Source of the DNA: Desulfonatronovibrio hydrogenovorans DSM 9292
GTDB lineage: Bacteria; Desulfobacterota; Desulfovibrionia; Desulfovibrionales; Desulfonatronovibrionaceae
Direction: 5' to 3'
Assembly (NCBI RefSeq): GCF_000686525.1
Contig: NZ_JMKT01000008.1
Coordinates: forward strand, 372,001 to 436,000
Length of the DNA: 64,000 bases
Positions 8,611-49,681 of the stretch are shown here, in pieces; positions within the stretch are counted from its first letter, which is position 1; every line of letters starts with the position of its first letter. The notes under the pieces were generated by a model, which was not told the origin of the DNA, ran no database searches, and saw only the letters and a list, made by a program, of their open reading frames with translations. The position numbers were made by a program, and so were the translations under genes.

Positions 8611-9561
8611 ATGATAAGATCTGAAGACCAGTTTCTGGCCCTGATCGACCAGGCATTCCCCAATTCCCATCCCCATATGGTGGTGGGCAGGGGGGATGAT
8701 TGCGCAGTTTTGAGTTGTCCGGACAGGATCTGCCTGACCAGTGATCTTTTTCTGGAGAATATTCATTTCCGACTTGATTATTTCCAGCCTGCAGACATCG
8801 GACACAAAGCCCTGGCTGTAAATTTGAGCGATCTGGCTGCCCATGGGGCCATGCCTCTGGGGTTTAATTTGAACCTTGTCTGGCCAGCGTATCTGGATGA
8901 AGATTTCTGCAGGTCCATGCTGGCGGGAATGGCTGATCTGGCTCAAGAGCATCAGCTGGCCCTGACTGGAGGGGATTTAAGTTTTGGACCGTACCTGGGT
9001 CTGGGCATAACCATTTGGGGAAAAAGCCCTGATAACTTTATGCTGAGAAAGAGATGTTTTCCTGGCGATCTTTTGTTTGTAGTTGGTGAAATTGGTCTGG
9101 CCAGGTGCGGGTTGCATATACTGGAAGAGCAAGACCCTGATTCGGCCAGATTCCCAAAGTCGGTTCAGAGCCATCTGCGGCCCAGGCCTTTGAACAGGGA
9201 GGGCATAATCCTGGCTGAATCAGGGCTGGCCTGTGGAATGATGGACGTATCAGACGGTCTGGCTGCTGATCTGCCCAGATTTTTGGCTGAGGGGAATGGA
9301 GTAGCTCTGGATATGGATATCAGGTTTCATTCTGAGGTCCTTGAATACTGTCAAGAGTATGATCATGATCCTTTGATTTTTTCCCTGCAGGGCGGGGAGG
9401 ACTATGCTTTGCTGGCTGGATGCAGGGAACAGGACTGGCCTTTGGTCAAGTTAAAGCTGGAAAGAGCCTGGAAGCTGGGCAGAATTGTTCCAGGGCCTGG
9501 CCTTTACTCTGATGGTCACAGGCTTTCCATTAAAGGTTTTGACCATTTTAAAAAGGACTGA
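8611..9561 (+). CDS. thiL: Thiamine-monophosphate kinase
   Basis: ThiL phosphorylates thiamine monophosphate to thiamine diphosphate, the last step of cofactor synthesis. The 316-residue product has the family's N-terminal GRGDDCAVL and TSDLFLENIHF segments, the KALAVNLSDLAAHGA core, a TGGDLSFG glycine motif and the C-terminal MMDVSDGLAADL and GGEDYALL motifs. It is the last gene of a plus-strand run and is followed by a strong terminator. The other thiamine gene in the window, thiM, is about 9 kb away at the end of the cobalamin cluster. No TPP riboswitch is visible upstream. Confidence 0.93.
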   Translation: MIRSEDQFLALIDQAFPNSHPHMVVGRGDDCAVLSCPDRICLTSDLFLENIHFRLDYFQPADIGHKALAVNLSDLAAHGAMPLGFNLNLVWPAYLDEDFCRSMLAGMADLAQEHQLALTGGDLSFGPYLGLGITIWGKSPDNFMLRKRCFPGDLLFVVGEIGLARCGLHILEEQDPDSARFPKSVQSHLRPRPLNREGIILAESGLACGMMDVSDGLAADLPRFLAEGNGVALDMDIRFHSEVLEYCQEYDHDPLIFSLQGGEDYALLAGCREQDWPLVKLKLERAWKLGRIVPGPGLYSDGHRLSIKGFDHFKKD

Positions 9562-9600: not shown

Positions 9601-9643
9601 AAAAAAGGCTTGCCTCCAGTTTATAGGAAGCAAGCCTTTTTTC
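9601..9643. terminator. Bidirectional rho-independent terminator
   Basis: AAAAAAGGCTTGC pairs with GCAAGCCTTTTTT around a 16-base loop, with A and T tracts on both flanks. It separates convergent thiL and the selenoprotein gene. Confidence 0.92.
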
Positions 9644-9669: not shown

Positions 9670-11001
9670 CTAGTACTCATCATCGTCAAGATCAATCCCG
9701 TCCCTTTCAAACTGGGCGTCGCGCAGGGCATGGGCTTCCTTGACCTCCTGTTCGCTCCAGGGTTCGATAATCAAGGCCTGGGCAACCATTTCCCAGAGGT
9801 ACAGGGTTTCTTTGCAGTTACCCATGTCAAATTTGGGAGTCAGACCCTTCATGATCTGGTCGCGACAGTTATGGCAGGGAGCAACAACGATTTCAGCGCC
9901 TGTAGCCTTTATCTGATCAGCCTTGACTTTACCGTAAGTCAGCCTTTCGTCTGAATATGGGCTAGCCCAGGCACCACCGCCGGCACCGCAGCAATGATTG
10001 TTCAAGGCATTGGGATGCATGTCAATGATGTTTTTCTTATCAAAGATTTGCTCGACAATGTACCGATACTCTTCGGTGTATTCCTTGTCAAAGGCAGCCT
10101 TGGACTTGCGGAAGTAGTTGCACGGATGATGCAGGGTAACAGTGTGGTTGGCGAATTTTTCCTTGTTTATCTTGATCCGGCCGGTCTTGATGTAATCAAC
10201 CAAAACTTCATAGATGCTGACAATGTTGAATTCTTCGTATGCTTCAGGAAACCAGGTTCTCAACCCTAACTGGGTTGCAAAGTAGGCATGGCCTCACTCA
10301 GGGTAGAGGATGGTTTTGGCCTTCAACCTCCTGGCATTTTCCAGGACGCGTTCCACCTGGATTTTCATGTTTTCATCGTCACCAGTAAAAAGGCCCCAGT
10401 TGACCCCTTCCCAGTTTACTGAGGACACGGTCCAGTCTTCTTTGGCAGCATAAAAGATCTTCCACCAGAAAGCCATGTCTTCTGGCTCGCCGAAAGGTTC
10501 CTTGGAGTTGATGGTCACAATGATGTTGGCGTTTTCCTTGTCCACAGGCACATAAAAGCCTGGACAGGGCTGCTCTTCATCTTCTTCCATGAGTTCTACA
10601 CCCAGCTCTGCCAGCAAAAAGAGGAAATCAAACTTGGGAATACCCAGGTTGTTGCCCCTTTCATAGTTCATTATGGTTCCCTTGTGCAGAGGCCCGGGCA
10701 CCTTGTCACGCTCCCTCAGGCTGCGCAGTCCGCGAAAGGTCTTCTGGAGCTGGACTCCCTGTGGACAAGCGTACTGGCATCGGCCACACAGAGTACACAC
10801 CCAGGGGAACTTGGAGTCAACAACCTCCTGTTCCAAGCCCATGGCTATAGAACGAATGGCTTTCCTGGCATCCCAACCAGGGACGACACCGCTTATGGGA
10901 CAGCCACTGGAGCAGGTAGTGCAGGTGTAGCACACATCCGCCATTTCAGGCGTCAGGTCCAGCTTCCCCTCTTTTCGTTCGCCTAATTTGAGAGCTTCCA
11001 T
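9670..11001 (-). CDS. HdrD/DsrK-like Fe-S oxidoreductase, selenoprotein (Sec236 from in-frame UGA)
   Basis: Reading UGA at 10296-10294 as selenocysteine joins two in-frame segments into one 443-residue protein. The N-terminal half has two [4Fe-4S] motifs, C24-x2-C27-x2-C30-x3-CP and C69-x2-C72-x2-C75-x3-CP. The C-terminal half is a CCG domain: HPC (C294), CCG (C337, C338) and PCHNC (C376, C379). U236 lies in PE-U-GHAY, where HdrD/DsrK relatives have Cys in a PECGHA motif. Such proteins move electrons to or from disulfides or membrane carriers. It has no signal peptide and no membrane segment. GGAGG precedes the ATG, and the gene stands alone between a terminator and an AT-rich upstream region. 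A true stop codon is unlikely because homology-like motifs continue in the same frame. Confidence 0.88.
10261..10277 (-). promoter_or_regulatory. Bacterial SECIS-like hairpin
   Basis: Starting 17 bases after the UGA, CAACCC pairs with GGGTTG around the five-base loop AGTTA. The loop GU lies 24-25 bases after the UGA. A perfect stem within the coding sequence, at this distance and with GU in the loop, is what SelB recognises in known bacterial SECIS elements. Confidence 0.78.
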
Positions 11002-11583
11002 TTAACTTTCCTCCAAAGGAATGAGGTTTGCGATAACAAATTAAAAACTCTAAAAGACTATTACCTATTGATATTGGCTATAATTTTTCCTTTTGAATAT
11101 TTCATATTAAAATAATGTGGTTAAAAAAAAATAGCAATAGTTAATTTTATTTTTTGGACAAGAAGATTTCAGCAGATTAAGCATCTGGAGCCGGCCTGGT
11201 CGGGATAAAAGGGATTATTATGGACTAATCCTATCCAAAAAAAGAAGGCCCTGCTGGCCAAAATAAAAAAACCGGCCGTTCTCAGCGCAGACAAGGCTTT
11301 GCCTGAGGATGCTATTAAGAATTCCGCTATTTTTTTGCAAGAAATATTAATTTTAATAATTGCATACTTGCAGAAAAATGGCAACCGGAATTTTGATAAT
11401 TATTGTGCCCCGGGCTTGCAAAAAAAAAGATTTGCAGGCTAAAGACAGAAGTTTTAAGTTTTTTAGTGTGTTGACCGGGAGCAGGAAAGTTGCTTTGAAC
11501 ATGTCCGGATTATTGAAGGTGCCCTGGATTTTAAGCTGAAACAGCATGATGAAGATTTTGGCAGAAAAAAAGGAGTGCCCTGC
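11002..11583. other. AT-rich intergenic region, divergent control region
   Basis: This 580-base gap separates divergent transcription of the selenoprotein and the cobalamin cluster. It is much richer in A and T than its surroundings and has many A and T tracts. Short open frames exist on both strands but lack ribosome-binding sites and convincing composition. I looked for the conserved cobalamin-riboswitch core upstream of cobB and did not see it. Confidence 0.5.
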
Positions 11584-12951
11584 TTGAAATTGATTGTTGG
11601 TGCTGTGGCCAGTGGTACGGGTAAGACCAGCGTCTGTCTGGCCCTGGCTGCCGGGTTGATCAAAAAAGGAATTCAGGTAAACGGGTTCAAGGTGGGGCCG
11701 GATTATATTGACCCCATGTACATGGAACTTGTTACTGGGAAGACCTGCTATAACCTTGATCCATGGATGAGCAGCCAGGAGCATGTCCAGGAGCTGGTAT
11801 CTGGACTACCGGGGCTGTCCTTGATCGAAGGGGTTATGGGTTATTATGATGGCCCGGATATTTCCAGTTCTACTGGCTCTACAGCCCATCTGACCGGGAT
11901 CCTGGGAAGCCCGGCTGTCCTGGTGGTTGATGCCAGGGCCATGGCCAGGAGTTTCGGCGCTCTGGTCCGGGGTTTTGTGGACTTTGAGGATTTAGGAAAG
12001 AATATCAAGGCGATCATTGCCAATGGTTGCGGCTCCCAGAGACATGCTGACCTTCTGGCTAAGGCACTTAACGGGTCAGGTCTGCCCCCTCTGGTTGGGG
12101 CAATACCTAAGAAGGCCTTGCCGGAACTTGCTTCCAGGCATCTGGGTCTGCAGACCCCTGACAGCCGGGAAGTAGATCCTGATATTGAGGATTTGTTTGC
12201 CCGGGCAGCTGAGCAGTACCTTGACCTGGATGGTATTATCAGCCTGGCCGGCCAGACATCAGACCCTGGATTGATTCCGGGCTTCCGGTTTCAGGAGCAG
12301 TCAGGCCAAAAAAAGATCAGGGTCGCTGTTGCCAGAGACAGGGCTTTTAATTTTTACTACCAGGCCAACCTTGATGTTCTGGTCCGGGCCGGAGCTGATC
12401 TGATACAATTCTCTCCGACAAAAGACAGACATCTCCCTCAGGACATTCAAATGATTTATTTTGGAGGGGGTTATCCTGAGCTTTATGCCTATGAACTGAG
12501 CCAGAACAAGTCCCTGCGTAAAGATATCCTCAGTTATGCCGGTTCAGGCGGCCATATTTATGCTGAGTGCGGCGGGCTTGTCTATCTGTGCCGGGATTTG
12601 AAAATACTGAACGGCCAGGTTTTTCCCATGGCTGGAGTACTCCCGTTCAGGGCTTCAATGCTGGGCAGACGCAAAAGTCTGGGATATGTTCGGGTCAGCT
12701 TTGAGAATGACTGCCTCCTGGGAGATAAAGGTGCTGAGATCAGGGGACATGAATACCACTACTCCGAGATAGAGCCCATTAAACCTGGGCAGAAGTGGAA
12801 AAACGTCTATCAGGTTGAAAACTCCAGGCAGGAACCCAAAGACACTCTGGGTATAAGTTTGGGAAATGTTCTGGCCAGTTATGTTCATGTCTACTTCGGG
12901 CACAGGCCGGACGTGGCTCAAAGAATTGTGGAGTGGATCAGGGGCGAGTGA
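11584..12951 (+). CDS. cobB: Cobyrinate a,c-diamide synthase
   Basis: CobB/CbiA amidates the a and c side chains of the corrin ring using glutamine and ATP. The N-terminal dethiobiotin-synthetase-like domain has the P-loop GAVASGTGKTS followed by GFKVGPDYIDP. The C-terminal glutamine amidotransferase domain has YFGGGYPEL and the nucleophile Cys in AECGGLVYLC. About 455 residues is the normal length. I chose a TTG at 11584 because AGGAG lies eight bases before it and the protein then begins like its family (LKLIVGA); a GTG at 11575 is in frame but overlaps the ribosome-binding site. It is the first gene of the cobalamin run. Confidence 0.92.
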   Translation: MKLIVGAVASGTGKTSVCLALAAGLIKKGIQVNGFKVGPDYIDPMYMELVTGKTCYNLDPWMSSQEHVQELVSGLPGLSLIEGVMGYYDGPDISSSTGSTAHLTGILGSPAVLVVDARAMARSFGALVRGFVDFEDLGKNIKAIIANGCGSQRHADLLAKALNGSGLPPLVGAIPKKALPELASRHLGLQTPDSREVDPDIEDLFARAAEQYLDLDGIISLAGQTSDPGLIPGFRFQEQSGQKKIRVAVARDRAFNFYYQANLDVLVRAGADLIQFSPTKDRHLPQDIQMIYFGGGYPELYAYELSQNKSLRKDILSYAGSGGHIYAECGGLVYLCRDLKILNGQVFPMAGVLPFRASMLGRRKSLGYVRVSFENDCLLGDKGAEIRGHEYHYSEIEPIKPGQKWKNVYQVENSRQEPKDTLGISLGNVLASYVHVYFGHRPDVAQRIVEWIRGE

Positions 12952-35622: not shown

Positions 35623-36786
35623 TCAGCCGAAGATGAGGCCGATGATATCTTTACCCAGAAAGCCTCTGGCCATGTAGTTCAGGCCGACATAAAAGGCCAG
35701 AATTATAAAGATTCTGGTCAGGATTTTGTCTGGAATGTATTGGGATGTCCTGGGTCCGACCATGGAGCCTGCAACAATGCCCACCAGCTGAGTTCCGATA
35801 AGGGGCCAATGGACCATCACTCCCTGCAGCATGTAGCTGGTGATGCTGGTCAGCATGCCAATGAGAACGGCCATGGCTGATGTACCTGCAGCCAGATACA
35901 TGGGCAGGCCTGCTACACTGGTTAAAAAAGGCACCAGGATGAAACCTCCGCCCACTCCGAGAAAAGCTGCAATGGAGGCAATGGCAAAGCCTCCCATTAC
36001 CGGAAGCAGCGGATTAAAGGAAAATTCAACTCCAAAGAAAGTAAAGACAATCTTTTTCAGGTTCATGCTCATGACCTTGACTCCTAGTTCTTTGGTGTCA
36101 ATGGTCTGACCGGATCTTTTCTTTTTCATGGTTGCTTCAAAGGCCTGGGCAGCCTGTTTGGCCTTTTTCTTTCTCTTCTGACCGGAAGGAGTTGTTTCGT
36201 AAAGCATCCAGCAACCGAGAAGAAGGACAAAAAGTCCGAAATATCCTATATAGTCCCTGAAGGACACTTTGCCTGCAGTCAGGGTGGGCACAAGGTAGCT
36301 TCCGAGGATGGAGCCCAGGGCCAGAGCCAGGCCAACCGGCCAGACCAGCCTTCCCAGCTTTAGGTAATTTATGGTTGAGACCAAAGCTGACAATCCTCCC
36401 ATGAATTGGTTTGAGACCCTGATGGAATCGGTGATGGTTCTGTTCAGGCCGGGAGATGTATTTCTGAAGCTGTCAGCATAGTTGCCAAGCCCATATATGG
36501 TTATATGCCCTATGCCGGCCATGATTCCGCCAAAGGCTCCCACCGTGGAAAATATCCAGCCAACCCAGATGGCCCAGAAAAAAGCCAGAATCAGGTTGAC
36601 CTGAGGCCCACCGGGAATCCCAAGATAACCTGGCTCTGCTTTTGGATCAATCTGTCCTGGCCCGGTTCCAGATGGTGTCTCCAGTATGGCCTGGGTTAGT
36701 GCATCGGCATTAACCATGTCCGGAACAGCAATAATAGATAAAGCCATTAGAATAACAGCAGCTGCAGTTGCTGAAAGTAAGCGCAT
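35623..36786 (-). CDS. TauE/SafE-family sulfite/organosulfonate exporter, copy 2
   Basis: A 387-residue membrane protein with a signal-like N-terminus, then about eight membrane segments. The TauE/SafE repeats are visible: FSTVGAFGGIMAGIGHI near residue 85 and AAFLGVGGGFILVPFLTSVAGLPMYLAAGTS in the second half. A basic loop (GQKRKKKAKQAAQAF) separates the halves. By eye it is about three-quarters identical to the next gene upstream. GGAGG precedes the ATG. TauE proteins export sulfite, sulfoacetate or similar anions; which one is moved here is unknown. Confidence 0.88.
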   Translation of the reverse strand: MRLLSATAAAVILMALSIIAVPDMVNADALTQAILETPSGTGPGQIDPKAEPGYLGIPGGPQVNLILAFFWAIWVGWIFSTVGAFGGIMAGIGHITIYGLGNYADSFRNTSPGLNRTITDSIRVSNQFMGGLSALVSTINYLKLGRLVWPVGLALALGSILGSYLVPTLTAGKVSFRDYIGYFGLFVLLLGCWMLYETTPSGQKRKKKAKQAAQAFEATMKKKRSGQTIDTKELGVKVMSMNLKKIVFTFFGVEFSFNPLLPVMGGFAIASIAAFLGVGGGFILVPFLTSVAGLPMYLAAGTSAMAVLIGMLTSITSYMLQGVMVHWPLIGTQLVGIVAGSMVGPRTSQYIPDKILTRIFIILAFYVGLNYMARGFLGKDIIGLIFG

Positions 36787-37250: not shown

Positions 37251-38405
37251 TTAGCCTCCGGTAATGAGCTGGATAAGGTCCTTGCCGATGAAACCTCTGG
37301 CCATGAAGTTAAGACCTACGTAAAAGGCCAGAACTATGAAGATCCTGGTCAGGACCTTGTCAGGGATATACTGAGAGGTCCTGGGGCCAATCATGGACCC
37401 GACCACAATGCCCACCAGCTGGGTTCCGATTAGGGGCCAGTGAACCAGAACCCCGGCCACCATATAGCTCAGGATACTGGTTATCATGCCGATGAGAACG
37501 GCCATGGCTGATGTGCCTGCAGCCAGATACATGGGCAGACCGGCAATGCTGGTCAGAAACGGCACCAGCATGAACCCGCCGCCGACACCCAGAAAGGCTG
37601 CAATGGCAGCGATGATAAATCCGCCCACAATGGGAAAAATAGGATTAAAAGAGAATTCAACACCGTAAAAGGTGAAGGCGACCTTTTTCAGGTTCATGGA
37701 AATTACTTTCACGCCGAGTTCAGTGGTATCTACGGCTTCGCCGGCCCTCTTTTTCTTCATTGTGGCTTCAAAGGCCTGGGCTGCTTCCTTGGCTTTTTTC
37801 TTTCTCTTCTGACCGGCCGGAGTGGTTTCATAAAGCATATAGATACCAAGGACCAGGACAAAAATACCGAAGTACCCGACGTACTCTCTGAAGGAAATTC
37901 TGCCAGCAGTAAGGGTGGGGATCAGCCAGCTGCCCAGGATTGACCCGGCTGCCAGAAAGATACCCACAGGCCAGACCAGCCGGCCGAGTTTGAGGTAGTT
38001 AAAAGTGGAAACCAGGGCGCTCAAGCCCACCATGAACTGGTTGGAAACCCGGATGGAGTCTGTAACCGACCTGTTAAGGGTGGGAGCGGTTTCTCTGAAG
38101 CCCTGAGCATAGTTGCCCAGTCCGTAAATGGTGATGTGTCCGATACCGGCCATGATTCCGCCAAAGGCTCCCACAGTGGAGAATATCCAGCCAACCCAGA
38201 TGGCCCACAAAAAAGCCAGAATCAGGTTGATCTGGGGACCTCCAGGGATACCCAGATAGCCGGGTTCATCCCCTGGGTTGACAACACCAGAGGCAATTCC
38301 CTGGTTGATGCCTTCAGTCAGCCGGTCGGCCAGGGCTGTTCCACCCAAGGCCAGGGTAAGCATTACGAGCACGAGAAAGCTGATTAAAAAAAGTTTTTTG
38401 GGCAT
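37251..38405 (-). CDS. TauE/SafE-family sulfite/organosulfonate exporter, copy 1
   Basis: From ATG 38405 (AAGGAGG upstream) the product has 384 residues: a cleavable-looking N-terminus, the GIPGGPQINLILAF segment, then TauE/SafE membrane segments with FSTVGAFGGIMAGIGHI and AAFLGVGGGFMLVPFLTSIAGLPMYLAAGTS. It is a tandem paralogue of the gene at 35623. It starts 28 bases after the ferredoxin gene and is probably on the same transcript. A link to sulfur-oxyanion efflux is inferred from the family only. Confidence 0.88.
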   Translation of the reverse strand: MPKKLFLISFLVLVMLTLALGGTALADRLTEGINQGIASGVVNPGDEPGYLGIPGGPQINLILAFLWAIWVGWIFSTVGAFGGIMAGIGHITIYGLGNYAQGFRETAPTLNRSVTDSIRVSNQFMVGLSALVSTFNYLKLGRLVWPVGIFLAAGSILGSWLIPTLTAGRISFREYVGYFGIFVLVLGIYMLYETTPAGQKRKKKAKEAAQAFEATMKKKRAGEAVDTTELGVKVISMNLKKVAFTFYGVEFSFNPIFPIVGGFIIAAIAAFLGVGGGFMLVPFLTSIAGLPMYLAAGTSAMAVLIGMITSILSYMVAGVLVHWPLIGTQLVGIVVGSMIGPRTSQYIPDKVLTRIFIVLAFYVGLNFMARGFIGKDLIQLITGG

Positions 38406-38433
38406 GACTCCCTCCTTAATAAGATGTGAATGA

Positions 38434-38949
38434 TTAACCTCTTTCCTGTTCAGACAAAAGAATCTGGGTGGCATAATCCAGTCGGGTCTGGGACGATGCC
38501 TCATTGGGCTTGATAAAAGAAAGGGCGTGAGTGGTGCAGCCGGTTACGCATGCAGGCTTTAACCCCTGGTCCACCCGGTCCCGGCAGTAGTCGCACTTGA
38601 TGGCCCGGCCGTTGACCTCGTCCCATTGAGGTATTTTCCAGGGACAGGCTACTATACAGGCCTTGCAGCCCACGCAGAGCTCCTGGTTGACAAAAACAAT
38701 TCCGTCCTGTTCTCGCTTGGTCATAGCGCCGGTGGGGCAGGCAGATACGCACCAGGGGTTCTCACAATGAAAACAGGGCATGAACAGGGTCAGATACCTG
38801 GGCTGATCCTTTTTTTTGACCGGACCTACTGAAATCAACTGGCCAAACCTTGCTCCTGCAGGAACCTTGTTCTTGGCCTTGCAGTGCACTTCACAGGCCT
38901 TGCAGCTGATGCACCTTTTCTGATCGATTTTAATGAAATAGTTACTCAT
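38434..38949 (-). CDS. Multi-cluster 4Fe-4S ferredoxin (DmsB/NrfC type)
   Basis: This 171-residue protein has four Cys groups typical of the electron-transfer subunits of molybdopterin oxidoreductases: CISCKACEVHCKAKN, CFHCENPWCVSACP, CVGCKACIVACP and CDYCRDRVDQGLKPACVTGC. It has no signal peptide, so it is cytoplasmic. No catalytic or NrfD-type membrane subunit is adjacent; its neighbours are nuoN and the TauE/SafE gene. The molybdopterin oxidoreductase at 50766 also lacks partners and is a possible mate, an inference only. Confidence 0.9.
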   Translation of the reverse strand: MSNYFIKIDQKRCISCKACEVHCKAKNKVPAGARFGQLISVGPVKKKDQPRYLTLFMPCFHCENPWCVSACPTGAMTKREQDGIVFVNQELCVGCKACIVACPWKIPQWDEVNGRAIKCDYCRDRVDQGLKPACVTGCTTHALSFIKPNEASSQTRLDYATQILLSEQERG

Positions 38950-39022: not shown

Positions 39023-40438
39023 TCAATAAAGAAGAAAATTGCCGGCCCGTAAAAGCAGGTTAAAGATGTTCTGGGGGAGCAGACCCAGGTACAGAACTCC
39101 AAGGGCCAGAGCCATGGCAATGGAGGTTCCGGCCGGAGAAATGTTTATTTTTGCTGGTACAACCTGATCCAGGGTGTAGGCGTGACGGACCAGATTGAGA
39201 TAATAGTATATGGCCAATGCAGTATTGATGGCTGCCACAATGACCAGCCAGTAAAAACCTTCGCCCCAGGCTGAATTAAGCAGGAAGAGTTTGCCGGTAA
39301 ACCCAGCAGTAGGCGGCAGGCCTACCAGGGCAAAGGCAGCCACTGCCAGAACAAAGGCCAGGACCGGTGAACTTTTATACAGTCCCCTGAGATCGTTGAC
39401 ATATACGTTGCGTCCATTGTCCGAAAGTCTGGTTATGACCCAGAAAATGGTCAGATTCATTATCATGTAGACCAGGGCGTAATAAGAGGCCGCAGCCAGG
39501 CCGTAACTCCCTCCGGCCACCAGGCCCATCATGACGAAACCGGCGTGGGACACACTGGAATAGCCGAGAAGTCTTTTGATGTCCCTCTGGTTCAGGGCGG
39601 CCAGGTTGCCAATGGTCATGGAAAGAGCTGCAAAGATGGCCAGCATTGTCTTGACTTCCATTCCAGGGTTAAAGGCCATGAGCCTGACCAGGACAATAAT
39701 GGCCCCCAGTTTGGGCAGGGTGGCGGCAAAAGCAGCGGTTTCATTGCTGGCACCCTGGTAGACGTCGGCAGCCCAGAAATGAAAGGGGAAAAGGGCCAGT
39801 TTATACACAAAGGCCAGCAGAAACATTCCCAGTCCGATCAAAGCCATGGGCTGTTCAGAAAAGGACCAGCTCATGGTGGCCAAAGCATGAATGTAAGTGG
39901 TGTGCTGTCCGGCAATGATATAGGAGATTCCGTAAAGTCCTATGGCTGTAGCAACGGCTCCGAAAAGGGCGTATTTTATGGTGCCTTCCACTGCTCTGGG
40001 ATCGCTGTTGCGTAAAGGCAGAAGAATATACAGGCTGAATGAAGCCAGTTCCAGAGAAATGTATATGGTGAAAAGTTCAACAGTGCTGGAAAGGAGAAGC
40101 AGGCCAAAGGAGCTCATGAACATGAAAAAGAAGTAGTCGGCCCGGTTGGCCTTGCCCATGGACTGGTTTTTTATGGCGTTGGCACTGCAGATGGCTAGGC
40201 CCAGAAAAATCATGAACTTGAAGAACTGGGAAAGACCGTCAATTTTATAGGAGTGATAGAACATGAAGTCTGACTGGCCAAAGGAGAACAAGGCAATGAA
40301 CGCACCTGCAAAAGCTGCATAGGGCACCCACTCGGTCTTGTCCTTTAGTCTTTGGCTTATACTCTGCACAAACAGGATGCTCAGCAGCCCGACCATGTAC
40401 AGTTCTGGAATTATGAGTTGGGGGTTGAAATTCAGCAA
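39023..40438 (-). CDS. nuoN: NADH-quinone oxidoreductase-type subunit N
   Basis: A 471-residue antiporter-like complex I subunit with about 14 membrane helices. Family features include YISLELASFSLYILLP, the ALFGAVATAIGLYG helix, FHFWAADVYQGASNETAAFAATLPKLG and the DIKRLLGYSSVSHAGF segment. It is the last nuo gene of the operon, 72 bases after nuoM. It takes part in proton (or sodium) pumping in the membrane arm. Confidence 0.93.
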   Translation of the reverse strand: MLNFNPQLIIPELYMVGLLSILFVQSISQRLKDKTEWVPYAAFAGAFIALFSFGQSDFMFYHSYKIDGLSQFFKFMIFLGLAICSANAIKNQSMGKANRADYFFFMFMSSFGLLLLSSTVELFTIYISLELASFSLYILLPLRNSDPRAVEGTIKYALFGAVATAIGLYGISYIIAGQHTTYIHALATMSWSFSEQPMALIGLGMFLLAFVYKLALFPFHFWAADVYQGASNETAAFAATLPKLGAIIVLVRLMAFNPGMEVKTMLAIFAALSMTIGNLAALNQRDIKRLLGYSSVSHAGFVMMGLVAGGSYGLAAASYYALVYMIMNLTIFWVITRLSDNGRNVYVNDLRGLYKSSPVLAFVLAVAAFALVGLPPTAGFTGKLFLLNSAWGEGFYWLVIVAAINTALAIYYYLNLVRHAYTLDQVVPAKINISPAGTSIAMALALGVLYLGLLPQNIFNLLLRAGNFLLY

Positions 40439-40510
40439 GGTCTTTCTCCTTTTATCCTTCTGAGATCATTATATTCCCTGTGTCTTTAAGGCGGATTCGG
40501 CCCAAAGAGT

Positions 40511-42055
40511 TCACTCTTTTAGGCTCAAGTTTTTTTCCTCCAGCAATCCGGCCAGACTTGTCTGATGCTCTGCTTCCAAGGTAATATTATCATTGCTGGC
40601 CTGGATGTAGCCCAGGACTTTTTCAATGGACGGAGTCATAGTCTTGAGGGCCAGGGTCGGAGCCAGACCGATGTACAGGACCAGTACACCCAGGGGAAGC
40701 AGATAGGCCCACTCCCTGAAGTTCAGGTCTTTCCATTGTCTGGCTTTTTCCACCACTGGTTCTCCATAAGCCAGTTTTTGCAGTAGCCTCAGCATGTAGG
40801 CTGCAGCCAGAAGGGCTCCAGGCACCGCTAAAAGCCCAATGATCAGGCTGTGTTCAAAGGCTCCAATCAGGACCAATGCTTCACCTACGAAGCTGTTGGT
40901 TCCTGGAAAGGCCAGGGAGGACAGGGAAAACAATCCAAAAAAGAAGATATAGGCTGGCAGAAACCTGGCTATGCCCATGTTATCCTTTATCTCCCGGCTG
41001 TGGCTGCGTTCGTATATGGCTCCCACCAGCATGAACAGTGCTCCGGTGGTAATGCCATGGTTGATCATCTGGATAACCGCGCCTTCCAGCCCGCGGACGT
41101 TGAGGACAAATATGCCTAGAGTTACGAACCCCATATGGGCGACTGATGAATAAGCAATGAGCTTTTTCATGTCGTTCTGTCCCAGGGCCACCAAGCCGCC
41201 GTAAATAATGGAGGCAATGGAGATCCCGATCATGAGGGGGGCAAAGTAGACGCTGGCATCAGGGGTCATGGACAGACAGAACCTGATGAATCCATAGGTT
41301 CCCATTTTCAGCAGAACAGAGGCCAGAAGGACTGAGCCGGCTGTGGGAGCCTGGACGTGAGCTGCCGGCAGCCAGGTGTGGAATGGAAACATGGGTACTT
41401 TGATGGCAAAGGCCAGGGCCATGGCCAGAAAGGTCCAGGCCTGAAACCTGAATGAAAAGTCCTTGGCAATTAGTTCAGGAATGGAGAAGGTGCCTCCTGC
41501 CACGTAAAAGGCGACAATGGCTACCAGCAGAAGAGTACTTCCGGCCAGGGTGTAGATGAAGAATTTCAGAGAAGCGTATTTCTTTTCCGGGCCGCCCCAC
41601 ACTGCTATCAGCAGGAACATGGGGACCAGCATCACTTCCCAAAAGATGTAGAACAGGACAAAATCCAGGGCAACAAAGACTCCGATACAGGCTGCAGTCA
41701 TGAGCAGCATGCAGATGTGGAATTCTTTGACCCGCTGTCCAATGTAAGTCCAGGAGCAGAGTACACAAAAGGGCAAAAGCAGGACGGTCAGCAGGACCAT
41801 AAGGAAGCTTATGCCGTCAATCCCGATATGGTAGTTTATATTCCAATGGGGTATCCAGGAATATAGCTCCACAAACTGGAAGTCTGCATATCCCAGCCTG
41901 AATTTCAATAGTGGCAGGGCCAGGAGAATTTGCACAAAGGCCACTGCCAGCGACACCTGGCGGACTGCCAGTTCCCTGCGGATGAACACCAGAAGAACTG
42001 ATGCAGCCAGGGGGAAGAAAATCAAGGTGCTGAGTACCGGCCAGCTTGAATTCAT
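40511..42055 (-). CDS. nuoM: NADH-quinone oxidoreductase-type subunit M
   Basis: About 514 residues from ATG 42055, with GGAG at a good distance; a TTG 15 bases upstream is less likely. NuoM features are SWIPHWNINYHIGIDGISFLMVLLT, FYIFWEVMLVPMFLLIAVWGG, VPMFPFHTWLPAAHVQAPTAGSV and NDMKKLIAYSSVAHMGFV. It is a proton-pumping antiporter-like subunit of the membrane arm, placed between the second extra antiporter-like gene and nuoN. Confidence 0.94.
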   Translation of the reverse strand: MNSSWPVLSTLIFFPLAASVLLVFIRRELAVRQVSLAVAFVQILLALPLLKFRLGYADFQFVELYSWIPHWNINYHIGIDGISFLMVLLTVLLLPFCVLCSWTYIGQRVKEFHICMLLMTAACIGVFVALDFVLFYIFWEVMLVPMFLLIAVWGGPEKKYASLKFFIYTLAGSTLLLVAIVAFYVAGGTFSIPELIAKDFSFRFQAWTFLAMALAFAIKVPMFPFHTWLPAAHVQAPTAGSVLLASVLLKMGTYGFIRFCLSMTPDASVYFAPLMIGISIASIIYGGLVALGQNDMKKLIAYSSVAHMGFVTLGIFVLNVRGLEGAVIQMINHGITTGALFMLVGAIYERSHSREIKDNMGIARFLPAYIFFFGLFSLSSLAFPGTNSFVGEALVLIGAFEHSLIIGLLAVPGALLAAAYMLRLLQKLAYGEPVVEKARQWKDLNFREWAYLLPLGVLVLYIGLAPTLALKTMTPSIEKVLGYIQASNDNITLEAEHQTSLAGLLEEKNLSLKE

Positions 42056-42114
42056 TGGTAACGGCTCCAAGTTTAAGGTATGTTGATCAGTCCATTAAAC
42101 ATTGATCATGATTG

Positions 42115-43893
42115 TTATAAAAAGAAAACAAAGGCAGCCACAATAAGGGCCAGAAATACGGCAATGCCTAGATATTCCTGAATATATCCGGTCTGGGTCC
42201 TGTTAATGTTTTTCCCTATCCTCAAAACTCCATAAGCGGTCCCGTCAACAACCCGGTCAATATCATCCCGGTCAAACTGGGATGAACCTTTGGCCAGGCC
42301 CATAAGGCCAGCCAGCCCGATCTTTCTATATACCTCTGACCAGACAGAGTCGGTGGAAGCTACCGGCTTGTTGGCCAACCCTATGAACTTTCTGGAACCG
42401 ATCCTGTAGAACCAGTCCAGGTCAATGCTGATGGTTGGTTCAGGGGCCAGTTTTTTGATGAGCAGGAAAAATCCCAGGGCCGTGAAAAGCAGGATCTGCA
42501 TCACTTCCATGAAGTGGTACATGGTGTACGGCTGGAAATCGATCCCGTAGGGAAGCATGTTATAGAGATAAGGGGTGTAAATACCGATGAAAATGCAGAG
42601 CACTGAGGCGATAGCCATGGCTGCGTTCATGTTCCATGATGGATCCTTGGCTTTTTCCCAGGTTTCCTTGCTGCAATTGTTTTTACCGAACCAGATGAAA
42701 TAAGGAACCTTGAGTCCGGTATGCAGGAAGGTCCCAGCCGAGGCCAGGGTCAGCAGAAATGCAGCCCAGTAGATGTGTTCATCAAAACTTGCAGCAACGA
42801 TTATGGATTTGCTGACAAACCCGCTGAACAGTGGAAATGCGGATATGGACAGCCCGCCGATCAGGGTGAAGACAAAGGTCCAGGGCATCTTTTTGTACAG
42901 ACCGCCCAGGTCAGAGAATTTGCTCTTGCCTGTCATGTGCAGGACCGCGCCGCAACCCATGAACAGAAGTCCTTTGTACAGGATATGGGCAAAGGCGTGG
43001 GCTACGGTTCCATTGATGGCCAGCTGGGTCCCTATTCCCACTCCTGCGACCATGTACCCCACCTGGCTGATTACATGGTAAGCCAGCAGCCGGCGGCAGT
43101 CATTTTCCAGAACAGCATAAACAACTCCGTACAAGGCCATGATTACGCCCAGAGGAATCAGAATTTCCATGCCAGCAAAACCTCTGGCCAGGGCGTAGAC
43201 CGCAGTTTTGGTGGTGAAGGCGCACATGAAAACCGATCCCATCACAGTGGCTTCGCCGTAGGCGTCAGGCAGCCAGGCATGCAAGGGGGGAACAGCAGCG
43301 TTGAGGATGAATCCGATCATGATCAGATAAATGGCCAGGTTGGGTTCAGCCACGTTGAGATGAACAAAGGAGAGGTCTCCGGTGTTCTGATAGTGGATGA
43401 CTATCCCGGCCAGAAGGACCACGCCGCCGAATCCGTGAACCAGCAGATACCTGAATCCTGAAGCCAGAGCAGAATCGGTTTTTCGGTACCAGACCAGGAA
43501 GACCGAAGAAAAAGCCATGACTTCCCAGAACAGGAACAGGCTCAAAAAATCGCCGCAGAAAATCACCCCAAGGGAACCTGCCACGTAAAGCCAGGCAGTT
43601 ATATGCTGACCGTTGTCTTTGACATGCAGCCCGTACAGGGTGCCGATGATACACATGAGGGTCATGATATAGCCAAAGACCAGGCTGAGCCGATCCACCC
43701 GGCCAAACACGACTTCCCATTGCATGTAGTGAAATATGCCGTAAGTTCCCTGGCTCATGGAGAGGACTGCGCCAAAGGCCAGGATGGGAACGGCCAGCAG
43801 AAACACTGATCTGGCCTGGCCTTTGAACAGAGGGAGGAGCAGAGCACCCAGGCCGAGGATCACAGCCGGGTGAACAAAGATCTCACTTGTCAT
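42115..43893 (-). CDS. Antiporter-like proton/sodium-pumping subunit (NuoL/MrpD-like), second copy
   Basis: A 592-residue membrane protein of the proton-conducting transporter family. Motifs include FLFWEVMAFSSVFLVWY, NAAVPPLHAWLPDAYGEATVMGSVF, NDCRRLLAYHVISQVGYMVAG and HILYKGLLFMGCGAVL. The C-terminal 120 residues contain a lone amphipathic stretch and a final helix, reminiscent of NuoL's lateral helix but shorter. In Desulfovibrionales such genes are labelled Na+/H+ antiporter subunit D. It overlaps the 84-residue gene by 11 bases. Confidence 0.88.
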   Translation of the reverse strand: MTSEIFVHPAVILGLGALLLPLFKGQARSVFLLAVPILAFGAVLSMSQGTYGIFHYMQWEVVFGRVDRLSLVFGYIMTLMCIIGTLYGLHVKDNGQHITAWLYVAGSLGVIFCGDFLSLFLFWEVMAFSSVFLVWYRKTDSALASGFRYLLVHGFGGVVLLAGIVIHYQNTGDLSFVHLNVAEPNLAIYLIMIGFILNAAVPPLHAWLPDAYGEATVMGSVFMCAFTTKTAVYALARGFAGMEILIPLGVIMALYGVVYAVLENDCRRLLAYHVISQVGYMVAGVGIGTQLAINGTVAHAFAHILYKGLLFMGCGAVLHMTGKSKFSDLGGLYKKMPWTFVFTLIGGLSISAFPLFSGFVSKSIIVAASFDEHIYWAAFLLTLASAGTFLHTGLKVPYFIWFGKNNCSKETWEKAKDPSWNMNAAMAIASVLCIFIGIYTPYLYNMLPYGIDFQPYTMYHFMEVMQILLFTALGFFLLIKKLAPEPTISIDLDWFYRIGSRKFIGLANKPVASTDSVWSEVYRKIGLAGLMGLAKGSSQFDRDDIDRVVDGTAYGVLRIGKNINRTQTGYIQEYLGIAVFLALIVAAFVFFL

Positions 43894-44137
43894 AGTAGTC
43901 CTCCCTGGTCATGATCCCCAGATGACCGTACCATTTGGAAAGAATTATTATCAGCACACAGGCAACAAAACCAAAAATCGACCAGAAGCCGGGCAGCTTT
44001 TCCATCCATGTGTGCGCCTTGGCCTTGTCCAGGAACAAGGCGTCAAAAACCACCAGCAACCCCAGTACTGCATAGGATATTCTGATCAGGGTTTTTTGCC
44101 TGTCTCTCAGATAGTCGATCAGTTTGACCAGATCCAT
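43883..44137 (-). CDS. Small two-helix membrane protein of the nuo operon
   Basis: An 84-residue protein with two hydrophobic stretches (about 18-35 and 50-68) and a charged tail ending REDYYDK. It begins 36 bases after the first antiporter-like gene and overlaps the second by 11 bases, which supports real translation. It might stabilise the extra antiporter-like subunits. I recognise no family. Confidence 0.72.
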   Translation of the reverse strand: MDLVKLIDYLRDRQKTLIRISYAVLGLLVVFDALFLDKAKAHTWMEKLPGFWSIFGFVACVLIIILSKWYGHLGIMTREDYYDK

Positions 44138-44173
44138 GTCATTAAACTCCCTTGTGAATTTTCTTTCCAGAGT

Positions 44174-45655
44174 CTAGCCGCCCAGCAAAGCGATAAACTG
44201 GTGAAATATTTGTGGGTAGACACCCAGGATGACTGAGATAGTCGCAGTCAGACAAAGGGGAACCACCATGGTCATGGGGGCTTCACGATATTCATCCAGG
44301 TTGACCCCAGACACCGGCTTTTCAAAGAAAGCCTTATAGATGATGGGCCCGAAATAAGCAGCATTAAGAACAGTGCTGGCCATCAGGGCAAAAACGATAA
44401 TGATCTGTCCTGCTCCCATGGCTCCTGTGATCAGGTACCATTTTGAGGCAAATCCAGCCACAGGCGGGACCCCGATCATGCTAAGGGCGGCTATGCCAAA
44501 GGCACCGAAAGTCCATGGCATTTTCCTGCCAAGTCCCGACATCATGCTGATTTTTTTATGATGGGTAGCTACATATATGGCCCCAGCTCCAAAAAAGAGG
44601 GTGATCTTGCTGAATGCGTGGTGGGCAATGTGCATGGTTCCACCGGCAACAGCCAGGGGAGTGAGAAGGGCAACCCCCAAAACCACATAGGAGAGCTGAC
44701 TGACGGTTGAATAGGCAAGCCTGGCTTTAAGGTCATCCTTGGTTAAGGCTATGATGGATGCGACCACAATGGTGAATGCAGCCACGTATGCAGTGGGAAT
44801 GCCCAGGTACAAGGAATCCATGGTTTCCAGACCGAAGCCGGAAAGGATGACCCTGCAGATGGAGAAGACACCAGCCTTGACAACTGCTACAGCGTGCAGC
44901 AGGGCGGATACTGGAGTAGGTGCAACCATGGCCGAGGGAAGCCAGTTGTGCAGGGGAATGATGGCAGCCTTGGCCAGTCCTGCTATGTAGAGGATATAGG
45001 TCAGGACGACCCAATGAGCAGGAGCGTCATCAGGGAAAATACCCTGCACCATATCGCCCAGGTGGAAATCCAGTGTTCCGCACAGGACATAAGTCATAAT
45101 CATGGCCGGCAACAGGAAAAGCTTGGAGGTACCCATGAGATAGACCAGATATTTTCTGGCCCCACTGTAAGCCTCTTTATCCTGATGATGGGCGACCAGG
45201 GGGTAGGTGAAGACAGTGATGATTTCGTAGAAAAGATAAAGGGTGAAGATGTTGGCACTGAAGGCCACGCCCATGGCGCCGAAAATGGCCACAGCAAAAC
45301 AGAAATAATATCTGGTCTGGGCGTGTTCGTTCAGGGAGCGCATGTATCCGATGTTGTAGCTTGTGGCAAATATCCACAAAAAGGAAGCAACCAGGGCGAA
45401 AATCAGGGCCAGTCCGTCAGCTGCAAAGGATACGGTTATCCCTGGAAGAATGGTGAACAGGGTGTAGGTATATATGTTTCCGGCCAGAACCTTGGGGACA
45501 AGATACAGAACAGAAAGAAAAGTTGCTGCACCGGCAATGAAGGATACCGACTCCCTGTGGTTGATGTTCGTTCTGAAGTACCAGACGGCAAAAGGAGCAA
45601 TCAGGGTGATCAGCAGCGGGAGAAGCACATAGGAAGATGAGCTAATCTCAGTCAT
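44174..45655 (-). CDS. Antiporter-like proton/sodium-pumping subunit (NuoL/MrpD-like), first copy
   Basis: A 493-residue member of the same transporter family. It shows FAADGLALIFALVASFLWIFATSYNIGYM, FYEIITVFTYPLVAHHQDKEA, IIPLHNWLPSAMVAPTPVSALLHAVAVVKAG and DDLKARLAYSTVSQLSYV with the key Lys residues of antiporter subunits. It lies where nuoL would be, two bases after nuoK, and is shorter than a true NuoL (about 610). Called NuoL-like or MrpD-like. Confidence 0.9.
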   Translation of the reverse strand: MTEISSSSYVLLPLLITLIAPFAVWYFRTNINHRESVSFIAGAATFLSVLYLVPKVLAGNIYTYTLFTILPGITVSFAADGLALIFALVASFLWIFATSYNIGYMRSLNEHAQTRYYFCFAVAIFGAMGVAFSANIFTLYLFYEIITVFTYPLVAHHQDKEAYSGARKYLVYLMGTSKLFLLPAMIMTYVLCGTLDFHLGDMVQGIFPDDAPAHWVVLTYILYIAGLAKAAIIPLHNWLPSAMVAPTPVSALLHAVAVVKAGVFSICRVILSGFGLETMDSLYLGIPTAYVAAFTIVVASIIALTKDDLKARLAYSTVSQLSYVVLGVALLTPLAVAGGTMHIAHHAFSKITLFFGAGAIYVATHHKKISMMSGLGRKMPWTFGAFGIAALSMIGVPPVAGFASKWYLITGAMGAGQIIIVFALMASTVLNAAYFGPIIYKAFFEKPVSGVNLDEYREAPMTMVVPLCLTATISVILGVYPQIFHQFIALLGG

Positions 45656-45657
45656 TA

Positions 45658-45966
45658 CTATCCTCTCATGGTGGTTAGTTTTGCAGCCTCGACACTCTTG
45701 AACCGTTTGGAAACCACCAGCAGTATGGCCAGGAGCAGGGTGGCCTCTGCAGCTGCTATACCCATTACCAGAAGGGTTCCGATCTGACCGATTTCATTTG
45801 GTGTTGGGGTGAGCTGGGCAGAAGCCATGATGCTTAAGCCTGCTCCGTTGAGCATAAGTTCAATTCCCAGGATCATGCCCACCAGAGTCCTTCTGTACAT
45901 TATTCCGAACAGTCCCAGGCAAAGCAGGAAAATCGCAACAAGGTGATAGATGGTCATGGGGCTCAT
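45658..45966 (-). CDS. nuoK: NADH-quinone oxidoreductase-type subunit K
   Basis: The 102-residue, three-helix protein has the conserved MILGIELMLNGAGLSIMA segment with the membrane Glu, and VMGIAAAEATLLLAILLVVSKRF with the second Glu. It overlaps nuoJ by four bases (ATGA). Confidence 0.93.
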   Translation of the reverse strand: MSPMTIYHLVAIFLLCLGLFGIMYRRTLVGMILGIELMLNGAGLSIMASAQLTPTPNEIGQIGTLLVMGIAAAEATLLLAILLVVSKRFKSVEAAKLTTMRG

Positions 45967-46472
45967 CTTTGTTTCCTCCTCTCAAAGCCGAGGATGACTG
46001 CGCCGGCCATGGCCACTGTTAGAAGCAGGGAAATAAGCTCAAAGGGCAGGATATAGGGTTCCAAGAGAAAGCGTCCCAGTAATTTTACATCGGTTTCTTC
46101 AGGAGTAAAAATTGATGGCGGAGATGTCCTAAGAACTGCCATGCCCAGAAATACGGCAGGAGCTATGGCCCCCATCAGGGCGTAGACAAAAGTCTTTCTG
46201 GATTTTGGTTTGGCTTCGTCTCCGCCTGACCAGGCCTGGGTGAGCATGATGGCAAAGAAAATCAGGACACTGACTGCCCCCACATAGATAAGTATCTGCA
46301 TGAGTCCGATAAACGGGGCGGCCATGAGGAAGTAAAGTCCGGCAACACCAAACAAAGTCATGATAAGCCCCAGCAGGGCCCGGACAAGACTCTGGGCCAG
46401 CACCGTCATAAACCCGCCGACAACAATGAATGTTATGTGTCCGAAAAGGACTATGTAGGCCAGGTTTTCCAT
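45963..46472 (-). CDS. nuoJ: NADH-quinone oxidoreductase-type subunit J
   Basis: A 169-residue membrane protein with five helices. It contains GLIMTLFGVAGLYFLM and the conserved MQILIYVGAVSVLIFFAIML helix that carries the complex I pi-bulge. It lies directly after nuoI and overlaps nuoK by four bases. Confidence 0.92.
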   Translation of the reverse strand: MENLAYIVLFGHITFIVVGGFMTVLAQSLVRALLGLIMTLFGVAGLYFLMAAPFIGLMQILIYVGAVSVLIFFAIMLTQAWSGGDEAKPKSRKTFVYALMGAIAPAVFLGMAVLRTSPPSIFTPEETDVKLLGRFLLEPYILPFELISLLLTVAMAGAVILGFERRKQR

Positions 46473-47012
46473 TTAATTCTCCTTTTTTTGGGCCTGATAC
46501 CGTAATCTGGCCAGAAGATCGTATTCAAATTCCTGCCTGCTGTATCCGGCCAGGTAGACGTCACTGGAAAAACGCAGGGCATTGGCCGGGCAGTTCTGGA
46601 CACACAGGCCGCACAGACTGCAGTAGTTGTAATCCAGGTGAAAGGACTCCGGTTCCCGGACCACTTCATGGGGATGGATGAATTTCTGCTTTAGTTCCAG
46701 AGGCAGAAAAGCCATGTCCGGGTGAGGAGGAAGCATCTGCTTTGATCCTGAAGGCTGCTGCCTGGTTCGCAGGTTGATGCAGCTTGAAGGACAAAGCTGG
46801 TAGCAGGTCCCGCAGGCAATGCATTTAGTGGCAGCGGGATCATCATCTTTAGGAACCAGTTCAATGTGTCCCCTGTATCCTTCAAGAGATTCAACAGTTT
46901 TTCTTGGATAGTGAACTGTGATCTGGGGCTGAAAGAAGTTTTTTCCGGTGATCTTGAGTCCTACCAGCATGCTCCAAACGCCGGTCAGGGCCTCACGCAG
47001 AGTTTTGATCAT
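46473..47012 (-). CDS. nuoI: NADH-quinone oxidoreductase-type subunit I
   Basis: A 179-residue ferredoxin-like subunit starting at ATG 47012, which overlaps the nuoH stop by four bases; the longer frame is discounted. Two [4Fe-4S] motifs are present, CIACGTCYQLCP and CSLCGLCVQNCP, which hold clusters N6a and N6b. It passes electrons towards NuoB. Confidence 0.93.
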   Translation of the reverse strand: MIKTLREALTGVWSMLVGLKITGKNFFQPQITVHYPRKTVESLEGYRGHIELVPKDDDPAATKCIACGTCYQLCPSSCINLRTRQQPSGSKQMLPPHPDMAFLPLELKQKFIHPHEVVREPESFHLDYNYCSLCGLCVQNCPANALRFSSDVYLAGYSRQEFEYDLLARLRYQAQKKEN

Positions 47013-47983
47013 AAAGCCACCACCAGGGCTGTAATTAGAAGGTTGATGACTGTCAGGGGGATCAGCCATTTCCAGCAGAGATTCAGAAGCTGGTCAAAGC
47101 GGACCCTGGGATAGGTCCATCTGAACCACATCATGACCAGGAGCAGCAGGTAAACCTTGGCCAGGAACCACCACCATCCCGAGATTACCGGTCCGTTCCA
47201 CCCACCCAGAAAAAGGGCGGTTGCCAGGCTGCAGGCGATGATCATATATGCATATTCAGCCAGAAAGAATACTCCAAATCCCATTCCCGAGTATTCAGTA
47301 TGAAATCCGGCTGTAAGCTCACTTTCAGCCTCGGGCAGATCAAAGGGAGCCCTGTTGGTTTCTGCTAAGGCACAGATGAAAAAGATCACAAAGGCCAGAG
47401 GCTGGGTGAAGACGTGCCATTGCCAGGGCCATGAACCCTGTCCGGCTGATATTTCGTACAGATTGAATGTGCCGGTCATAAAAACAATGGGCAGGACTGA
47501 AAGAAGGAGCGGGATTTCATAAGCAACGGACTGTGAAATATCCCTGGCCGCGCCGAGCAGGGCGTATTTGTTCTGGGAGGCCCATCCGGCCAGACAAAGG
47601 GCCAGGACATTTATGCCGGTAAAGGCCAGGATCAGGATCAGTCCGACGTTGAGATCACTGAAAATGGCCAGGTGCGGACCAAAGGGAATGGCCAGAAAGC
47701 AGACCAATACCGGGGCCATGGACAGCATGGGTGCCAGCCAGTAAAGGAAGCTGTCCGCTCCAGAGGGAGTGAACATCTGTTTGCCCACCAGTTTGAGACC
47801 GTCTGCCAGGGGTTGAAGAAGGCCGTATGGTCCTACCTCGTATGGTCCTGGCCTTCGTTGGATGAATCCGGCGACCTTTCTTTCCAGGTAGACCAGGACC
47901 AGCCCGTTGAGCCCGATGAAGGCCATGATGGCGGCCAGACCTACAGCAATGATAATCAGCTGGGTTGGAATTAACTCAATCAT
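47009..47983 (-). CDS. nuoH: NADH-quinone oxidoreductase-type subunit H
   Basis: A 324-residue membrane subunit at the quinone entry site. Conserved stretches are YLERKVAGFIQRRPGPYEVGPYGLLQPLADGLKL, the PFDLPEAESELTAGFHTEYSGMGFGVFFLAEYA acidic region and FRWTYPRVRFDQL. It overlaps nuoD at its start and nuoI at its end by four bases each. Confidence 0.95.
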   Translation of the reverse strand: MIELIPTQLIIIAVGLAAIMAFIGLNGLVLVYLERKVAGFIQRRPGPYEVGPYGLLQPLADGLKLVGKQMFTPSGADSFLYWLAPMLSMAPVLVCFLAIPFGPHLAIFSDLNVGLILILAFTGINVLALCLAGWASQNKYALLGAARDISQSVAYEIPLLLSVLPIVFMTGTFNLYEISAGQGSWPWQWHVFTQPLAFVIFFICALAETNRAPFDLPEAESELTAGFHTEYSGMGFGVFFLAEYAYMIIACSLATALFLGGWNGPVISGWWWFLAKVYLLLLVMMWFRWTYPRVRFDQLLNLCWKWLIPLTVINLLITALVVAL

Positions 47984-49140
47984 CTGTCTATCTCCGGGAT
48001 GACCAAATCCAGGCTTCCGAGTATGGACACGGCATCCGACAGAAGGGTGCCTGCAGACACCTCGGCAAAGAGGCTCAAATTGGAAAAGCTCGGAGCCCGG
48101 AGTTTCAGGCGATAAGGTGATTCGCCGCCATGGCTGACCAGGTGGATTCCCACCTTGCCTCGTCCGCTTTCAACTGCAAAATATATATCCCCTTTTGGTG
48201 GACAGGGTCTTCTGGGGGCCAGAGGGTTGATGTGCTGGCCCTGGGGCAGGGCGTCCAGAGCTTGGGTAATGATGTTGATGCTTTCCTCTATCTCTTCCAT
48301 CCGGACCATGTATCTGGCCATGGCATCGCCTTCATCGTAAGTCGGTACTTTGAAGTCAAAACGGTGGTAAACCGAATAGGGTTCGGCTCTCCTGATGTCG
48401 TATTCAATACCAGACCCTCGAAGGACCGGACCTGTTGCTCCGTATAGTCTGCAGGTCTCAGCATCGATGTGGCCGATATCCTCCACCCGTTTACGCAGAA
48501 TGATGTTGTCAGTGACCAGGGATTTGAAAAGTTTGAGCCTTTCTTCCATATCCAGACAGAATTCCCGGACCTCGGTAATAAACCGGTCATCAATGTCGGC
48601 TGAGACCCCTCCGAACCTGTAGTAACAGTATGTTAGTCTGGCTCCGGTAATCCGCTGAAGGATATCCATGACCCTTTCCCGGTCGGCAAAGGCATACATG
48701 ATGGGGGTGAAGGCCCCCAGATCCAGAAGGTAGGCTCCCCACCACAGCAGATGAGAGTTGATTCGGTTAAGTTCACAGGTAATGACCCTGATGAACTCGG
48801 CCCGTTCCGGGACATCGATCCCCATAAGTCTTTCCACGGCCCCTACATAGGCCCAGTTCCAGGCCAGGGCGTGGAGGTAGTCAGCCCGGCCCATGTTGGG
48901 CAGATACTGGACATATGTCCGGACCTCGGCCATTTTTTCGTGCATGCGGTGGATATATCCCAGTACAGGCTCGGCCCGGACAATGTACTCACCGTCAATT
49001 TCCAGCAGTACCCGCAGAACTCCGTGGGTGGATGGGTGTTGAGGGCCCATGTTCAGGATGAGGGTGTCCTCTCGCTGAGTGGGCTGAAATTTTCTTGCGT
49101 AGTAATCTCCGCTGGTGTTTAAACGCAGATCCAGATTCAT
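47980..49140 (-). CDS. nuoD: NADH-quinone oxidoreductase-type subunit D
   Basis: The 386-residue 49-kDa-type subunit has NMGPQHPSTHGVLR near the start, EPVLGYIHRMHEKMAE, the HLLWWGAYLLDLGA region, and RVEDIGHIDAETCRLYGATGPVLRGSG. The Ni-binding Cys of hydrogenases are absent, as expected for complex I rather than an Ech-type hydrogenase. It forms the quinone pocket with NuoB. Confidence 0.95.
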   Translation of the reverse strand: MNLDLRLNTSGDYYARKFQPTQREDTLILNMGPQHPSTHGVLRVLLEIDGEYIVRAEPVLGYIHRMHEKMAEVRTYVQYLPNMGRADYLHALAWNWAYVGAVERLMGIDVPERAEFIRVITCELNRINSHLLWWGAYLLDLGAFTPIMYAFADRERVMDILQRITGARLTYCYYRFGGVSADIDDRFITEVREFCLDMEERLKLFKSLVTDNIILRKRVEDIGHIDAETCRLYGATGPVLRGSGIEYDIRRAEPYSVYHRFDFKVPTYDEGDAMARYMVRMEEIEESINIITQALDALPQGQHINPLAPRRPCPPKGDIYFAVESGRGKVGIHLVSHGGESPYRLKLRAPSFSNLSLFAEVSAGTLLSDAVSILGSLDLVIPEIDR

Positions 49141-49154
49141 TACACTATCCTGTT

Positions 49155-49679: not shown

Positions 49680-49681
49680 GC

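Follow-up and report, generated by a model that had tools for sequence, protein, structure and literature searches.

The locus

The window analyzed here, a 64,000-nucleotide stretch of the genome of Desulfonatronovibrio hydrogenovorans DSM 9292, carries on its minus strand a gene that an ORF listing shows as two segments in the same frame, 10294-11001 (235 aa) and 9670-10263 (listed from a TTG). The sole stop between them is a TGA at 10296-10294. If this codon is read as selenocysteine (Sec, U236), 11001-9670 forms one frame of 443 aa that terminates at the TAG 9672-9670, with the motif ILYPEUGHAYFATQLGL running across the TGA. The first-pass annotation, which described two segments split by the TGA alone and a PE-U-GHA motif at their join, was right on both points; it gave no strand.

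The gene (Table 1) forms a unit of its own, flanked by thiL (8611-9561) and cobB (11575-12951). The inverted repeat toward thiL is probably a bidirectional terminator of both the selenoprotein gene and thiL, judging by its sequence and fold; it is absent from the listing of a consensus terminator scan. A promoter scan returned no promoter worth claiming.

Elsewhere in the window, two adjacent and very similar predicted membrane transporter genes lie on the minus strand (35623-36786 and 37251-38504), and the pair adjoins a 4Fe-4S ferredoxin-type gene (38434-38949). A long Nuo-like gene cluster follows on the minus strand (39023-50218); its NADH-oxidising part (NuoEFG) is not obvious in the ORF list.

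Table 1. Features at the selenoprotein locus, in window coordinates.
Feature	Position	Strand	Basis
Predicted selenoprotein gene (GlpC/HdrD-type), 443 aa, ATG 11001-10999, TAG 9672-9670	9670..11001	-	reading frame; orthologues 58-76% identical with the same TGA
In-frame TGA, predicted Sec codon of U236	10294..10296	-	reading frame and alignment column in homologues
Predicted bacterial SECIS hairpin, 6-bp stem CAACCC/GGGTTG, loop AGTTA	10261..10277	-	covariation in TGA copies, absent in Cys copies; fold
N-terminal 4Fe-4S dicluster domain (HdrC-like), residues 21-83	10753..10941	-	PF13183, E 1.8e-08; HdrC chains in PDB
C-terminal CCG domain (HdrB-like), residues 288-383, Cys 294/337/338/376/379	9853..10140	-	PF02754, E 1.1e-11; invariant columns
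Shine-Dalgarno-like GGAGGAAAG upstream of ATG	11006..11014	-	sequence
Inverted repeat with T-run on both strands, toward convergent thiL	9601..9642	.	sequence and fold

Selenocysteine machinery and the TGA column

The Sec machinery that the first-pass annotation called for is complete in this genome: selA (E 1.7e-163), selB (403 bits against a cut-off of 242), tRNA-Sec (selC, 82 bits against a gathering score of 47) and selD (377 bits against a cut-off of 125) are all present. The selD gene (G000:C8:543155-544081, L018) itself contains one in-frame TGA, and its product is probably a selenoprotein too. Across the class, selA occurs in 280 of 348 genomes, so a test of correlation between Sec machinery and the TGA has little power.

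Orthologues 58-76% identical to the window protein, from many families of the phylum, have one TGA each, and it lies at the U236 column wherever the column was extracted. Homologues in the same class that are 41-48% identical have Cys there, as had been proposed, and more distant relatives have either Cys or TGA, leaving column 236 invariantly C/U in the alignment. Homologues do not end at this position but run through it, with Cys or TGA. Recurrence of a TGA at a single column in close orthologues from other genomes is far beyond chance, as are the Cys of Cys-type homologues at that column and the compensatory stem conservation confined to TGA copies (below). A sequencing error (TGC or TGT misread as TGA) is ruled out because the TGA is conserved across orthologues. 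Dual coding of Sec and Pyl was also considered and set aside; the extra in-frame TAG or TAA seen in several matches in the phylum proved, in the cases inspected, to be the natural C-terminal end.

The SECIS element

The hairpin CAACCC-AGTTA-GGGTTG begins 17 bases past the TGA, as first noted, and spans +17 to +33 (10277-10261). Folding alone says little about it: a 45-nt segment folds at -12.5 kcal/mol against -10.95 +/- 2.67 for shuffled sequences (z -0.58), which is not above chance, and no statistical case can be made from the single hairpin.

A comparison of 132 distinct copies is far more informative. A stem was scored as kept when no more than one of its 6 pairs was missing or, where a U at +32 is bulged out, when all 5 pairs formed; on this count it is kept in 74 of 81 TGA copies vs 6 of 51 Cys copies. 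The mean folding energy of a 25-nt segment is -10.5 kcal/mol in TGA copies vs -4.7 in Cys copies, and loop positions 23-24 are GG in 78 of the 81 TGA copies. The 3' arm mostly codes for Gly-Leu, and its codons (GGG TTG, GGA CTG, GGT CTG) switch to pair with the 5' arm, giving stems such as CAACCC/GGGTTG, CAGTCC/GGACTG, CATTCC/GGAATG and GAACTA/AGTTTC. When 3' arms are shuffled among copies encoding the same two amino acids, pairing falls to 0.875 +/- 0.008 from the observed 0.947, a value reached in 0 of 2000 shuffles (not a true probability, as related sequences are not independent). Mapped on the tree, positions +19/+31 switch from one pair type to another 9 times or more, and two alternating stem architectures, one with the bulged U and one lacking it, require 3 or more switches. 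Both registers occur within this one gene family (L151, L154, L156 and others), the bulged U at +32 belonging to one of them.

We regard this comparison across copies as decisive, with compensatory, synonymous-codon changes seen only in TGA copies. The first-pass reading of the hairpin as a bacterial SECIS element is thereby supported, through stem conservation and not through the fold alone. The UGA is almost certainly decoded as Sec with the help of this hairpin 17 bases downstream.

At five loci (L167, L166, L173, L067 and L081) a Cys copy branches from within the Sec copies and its SECIS stem has decayed; these are probable Sec to Cys reversions. The copy at L167 still has 5 of 6 pairs, the kind of residual stem expected of a reversion.

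Domain architecture and the position of U236

Pfam finds a 4Fe-4S dicluster domain (PF13183) and a single CCG domain (PF02754), both scoring over their cut-offs. Eight cysteines in the N-terminal part (C24, 27, 30, 34, 69, 72, 75 and 79, enough for two clusters) and the five of the CCG domain are invariant or nearly so. In HdrB, five CCG cysteines hold a noncubane cluster, and the conserved cysteines here would suffice for two cubane clusters plus a noncubane one. U236 is the sole invariant thiol or selenol in the alignment columns beyond those of the Fe-S clusters, and the alignment has no other invariant Cys between residues 140 and 235.

In an AlphaFold2 model (pLDDT 83.5), U236 sits between a strand (230-233) and a helix (237-250), mirroring the strand (371-374) and helix (377-387) around C376. 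By secondary structure, U236 would thus lie in a degenerate first CCG half, in the place of the first Cys of the second-half CxxC. This active-site placement comes from secondary structure and not from superposition; a profile comparison with HdrB aligned the second CCG half only, and so does not place U236. The best Foldseek match in the PDB is EtfD (9ojn, E 1.6e-12), with HdrB and HdrC chains also matched.

Gene order and a selenium Hdr-Mvh complex

About 146 kb from the selenoprotein gene, the same genome has an operon (G000:C8:528.5-535 kb; L177:5504-12153) encoding HdrA (U), MvhD (U), MvhG, MvhA and a maturation protease. The MvhA has the C-terminal sequence DPUMSCATH, and the operon encodes three further selenoproteins (HdrA, MvhD and MvhA). 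It encodes no HdrB, HdrC or GlpC. A second operon, on contig C9, is of the Cys type and reads HdrA-HdrC-HdrB-MvhD-MvhG-MvhA.

Relatives have the operon GlpC-HdrA(U)-MvhD(U)-MvhG-MvhA(U). The leading GlpC is a Sec-containing paralogue, B, in four genomes (G289, G029, G281, G288) and a Cys-containing paralogue, C, in two (G061, G089). The selenium operon is found without GlpC in other members of the class (G018, G020, G092, G094) and in the window's own family (G039, G038, G047, G032, G035). In the members of that family examined, a GlpC occupies the thiL-cobB/cbiX slot: B in G039, G038, G032 and G033, both A and B in tandem in G037, and A alone in the window; in G047, B lies beside cobB. G039, of the same genus, has HdrA, MvhD, MvhG and MvhA 87-96% identical to those of the window's genome, and its slot holds B, only about 33% identical to A. 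In the tandem of G037 (L053:2716-5746), which lies between cbiX and thiL, both A and B are Sec-GlpC paralogues and their identity is about 33%. The arrangement is an apparent intermediate in the displacement of B by A.

On a tree that requires 5 Sec/Cys changes, the window copy of A is sister to that of L053 (G037) with an SH-aLRT of 100, and a supported clade of Sec copies from other parts of the phylum encloses the two. Outside the window's family, their nearest neighbors on the tree belong to other families of the phylum, which suggests horizontal transfer into the window's lineage.

Clade A copies lie beside a hydrogenase maturation protease, HdrA, MvhG and MvhA at three loci (L147, L164, L165), a neighborhood that resembles the glpC-hdrA-frhD-frhG-frhA operon described previously (PMC1794560). 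At five others (L154, L156, L160, L162, L163) they lie beside HdrA and an AsrA/AsrB-like (Flx-like) module, and in several genomes they stand alone; for these reasons the partners of clade A may differ. In a sample of the phylum, with kinship ignored, an A-like GlpC occurs in 30 of 50 genomes with this MvhA vs 37 of 345 others.

On balance, the gene order of relatives favors the window protein being a detached HdrBC-like subunit of the selenium HdrA-MvhD-MvhG-MvhA complex, with that complex as its likeliest electron partner. We propose this because the selenium operon is without HdrB, HdrC or GlpC while the Cys operon has both HdrB and HdrC, and because relatives keep a paralogous Sec-GlpC in the same slot, with a tandem in one genome. 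A more tentative extension, which we put forward as a conjecture, is that the U236 selenol replaces the lost first noncubane cluster of HdrB, that A, B and C are exchangeable on the complex, and that in the window's lineage A displaced B at the same locus by way of a tandem. Disulfide chemistry would then be carried out by one noncubane [4Fe-4S] cluster and one selenol, and the selenium HdrA-Mvh complex would take A (Sec), B (Sec) or C (Cys) depending on the genome. The genomes with a Cys-type subunit in the same operon (G061 and G089) offer a natural comparison of Sec and Cys within one enzyme.

Proposed mechanism and alternatives

The product would be a soluble selenoprotein of about 50 kDa, with an HdrC-like ferredoxin part (two [4Fe-4S]) fused to an HdrB-like part that keeps the five cluster cysteines in its second CCG half only. 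The U236 selenol and the single noncubane [4Fe-4S] cluster would reduce or form a disulfide, with electrons relayed via the two ferredoxin clusters. We consider this mechanism likely, with a DsrC-type protein or another thiol as substrate. DsrC itself is a guess made from the family; direct interaction of DsrC with FlxABCD-HdrABC is cited elsewhere (PMC10553843). Taken as a whole, a Sec protein that uses a selenol with a noncubane cluster and partners the selenium HdrA-Mvh complex is the best explanation, with a probability of roughly three in four.

That the TGA is a true stop, whether through gene breakage, a sequencing error or the presence of two distinct proteins, would fit the two ORFs of the mechanical listing, but it is very improbable given the same TGA in dozens of genomes with both flanks conserved, the conservation of the stem and the full Sec machinery. 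Instead of acting as a catalytic selenol, U236 might be a ligand, for example of a rearranged iron-sulfur cluster: by secondary structure it matches the first Cys of the CxxC that in the other half holds the noncubane cluster. The other ligands of the first half are missing, however, the stretch 140-235 supplies no invariant Cys, and selenocysteine is usually catalytic, all of which makes a ligand role improbable.

A different partner deserves more weight. The protein could be a selenoprotein of the UGH family whose work as a soluble disulfide reductase needs no partner or draws on ferredoxin, an NADH (Flx-like) module or some other donor, as a stand-alone gene with its own ribosome site and terminator might suggest, and as do the many genomes in which clade A lies beside HdrA and an AsrA/AsrB-like module or by itself. 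We nevertheless hold this rather unlikely, since of the two operons here only the Cys one has an HdrBC-type subunit, the selenium HdrA-Mvh operon being without, and since in relatives GlpC is part of the operon or a paralogue occupies the same thiL-cobB/cbiX slot.

Comparison with known systems

By every computational test the window protein is a selenoprotein, and it is a member of an already predicted family. The Fe-S oxidoreductase-like (GlpC) selenoprotein family was predicted by 2006 (PMC1794560); it has been entered as Fe-S oxidoreductase-like, UGH (PMC13188914), and corresponds to COG0247 GlpC (PMC9312934). The window protein shares with this family (COG0247/PTHR43551) the in-frame TGA in a UGH motif (PEUGHA), Cys homologues, the dicluster and CCG domains, a genome with Sec machinery, and, just after the TGA, a bacterial SECIS (stem +17 to +33) whose loop, AGTTA, has a G among its first two positions. 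The operon of relatives, with HdrA, FrhD/MvhD and FrhA/MvhA, is as described for Syntrophobacter and Desulfotalea. Membership in a glpC-hdrA-frhD-frhG-frhA operon holds for some family members only; the window copy, in contrast, is detached and placed between thiL and cobB. We found no separate description of its clade in the literature. For a family known from sequence for about 20 years, gene order offers a testable function, that of HdrBC in a hydrogenase complex in which as many as four subunits are selenoproteins.

The earlier label "HdrD/DsrK-like" is sound for the superfamily; the family, however, is GlpC UGH, and the protein is not DsrK, HmcF or TmcB: it scores 144 bits against a cut-off of 400 for DsrK (NF045796), 201 against 750 for HmcF (NF045711) and 154 against 735 for TmcB (NF045724), all far below the curated cut-offs, as was found for related clades tested likewise. 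Those three proteins share its domain order, and DsrK and HmcF copies have a CGH-type motif, but they carry Cys where the window protein has Sec. DsrK, HmcF and TmcB belong to membrane complexes. The fold of both halves is shared with HdrB and HdrC of methanogens (5odc, 8rvu). HdrB has two complete CCG halves, whereas in the window protein only 288-383 matches CCG, the first half being degenerate and bearing the Sec. EtfD (9ojn) is just 17% identical and has a larger chain (742 residues resolved).

The first-pass annotation suggested that a soluble, stand-alone form might be new, but a soluble Sec-HdrD (HdrD4) had already been reported in Desulfobacterium autotrophicum (PMC2702500). Likened by that description and not by sequence, HdrD4 is a counterpart in form: a soluble fusion of HdrC and HdrB with no membrane part, containing Sec.
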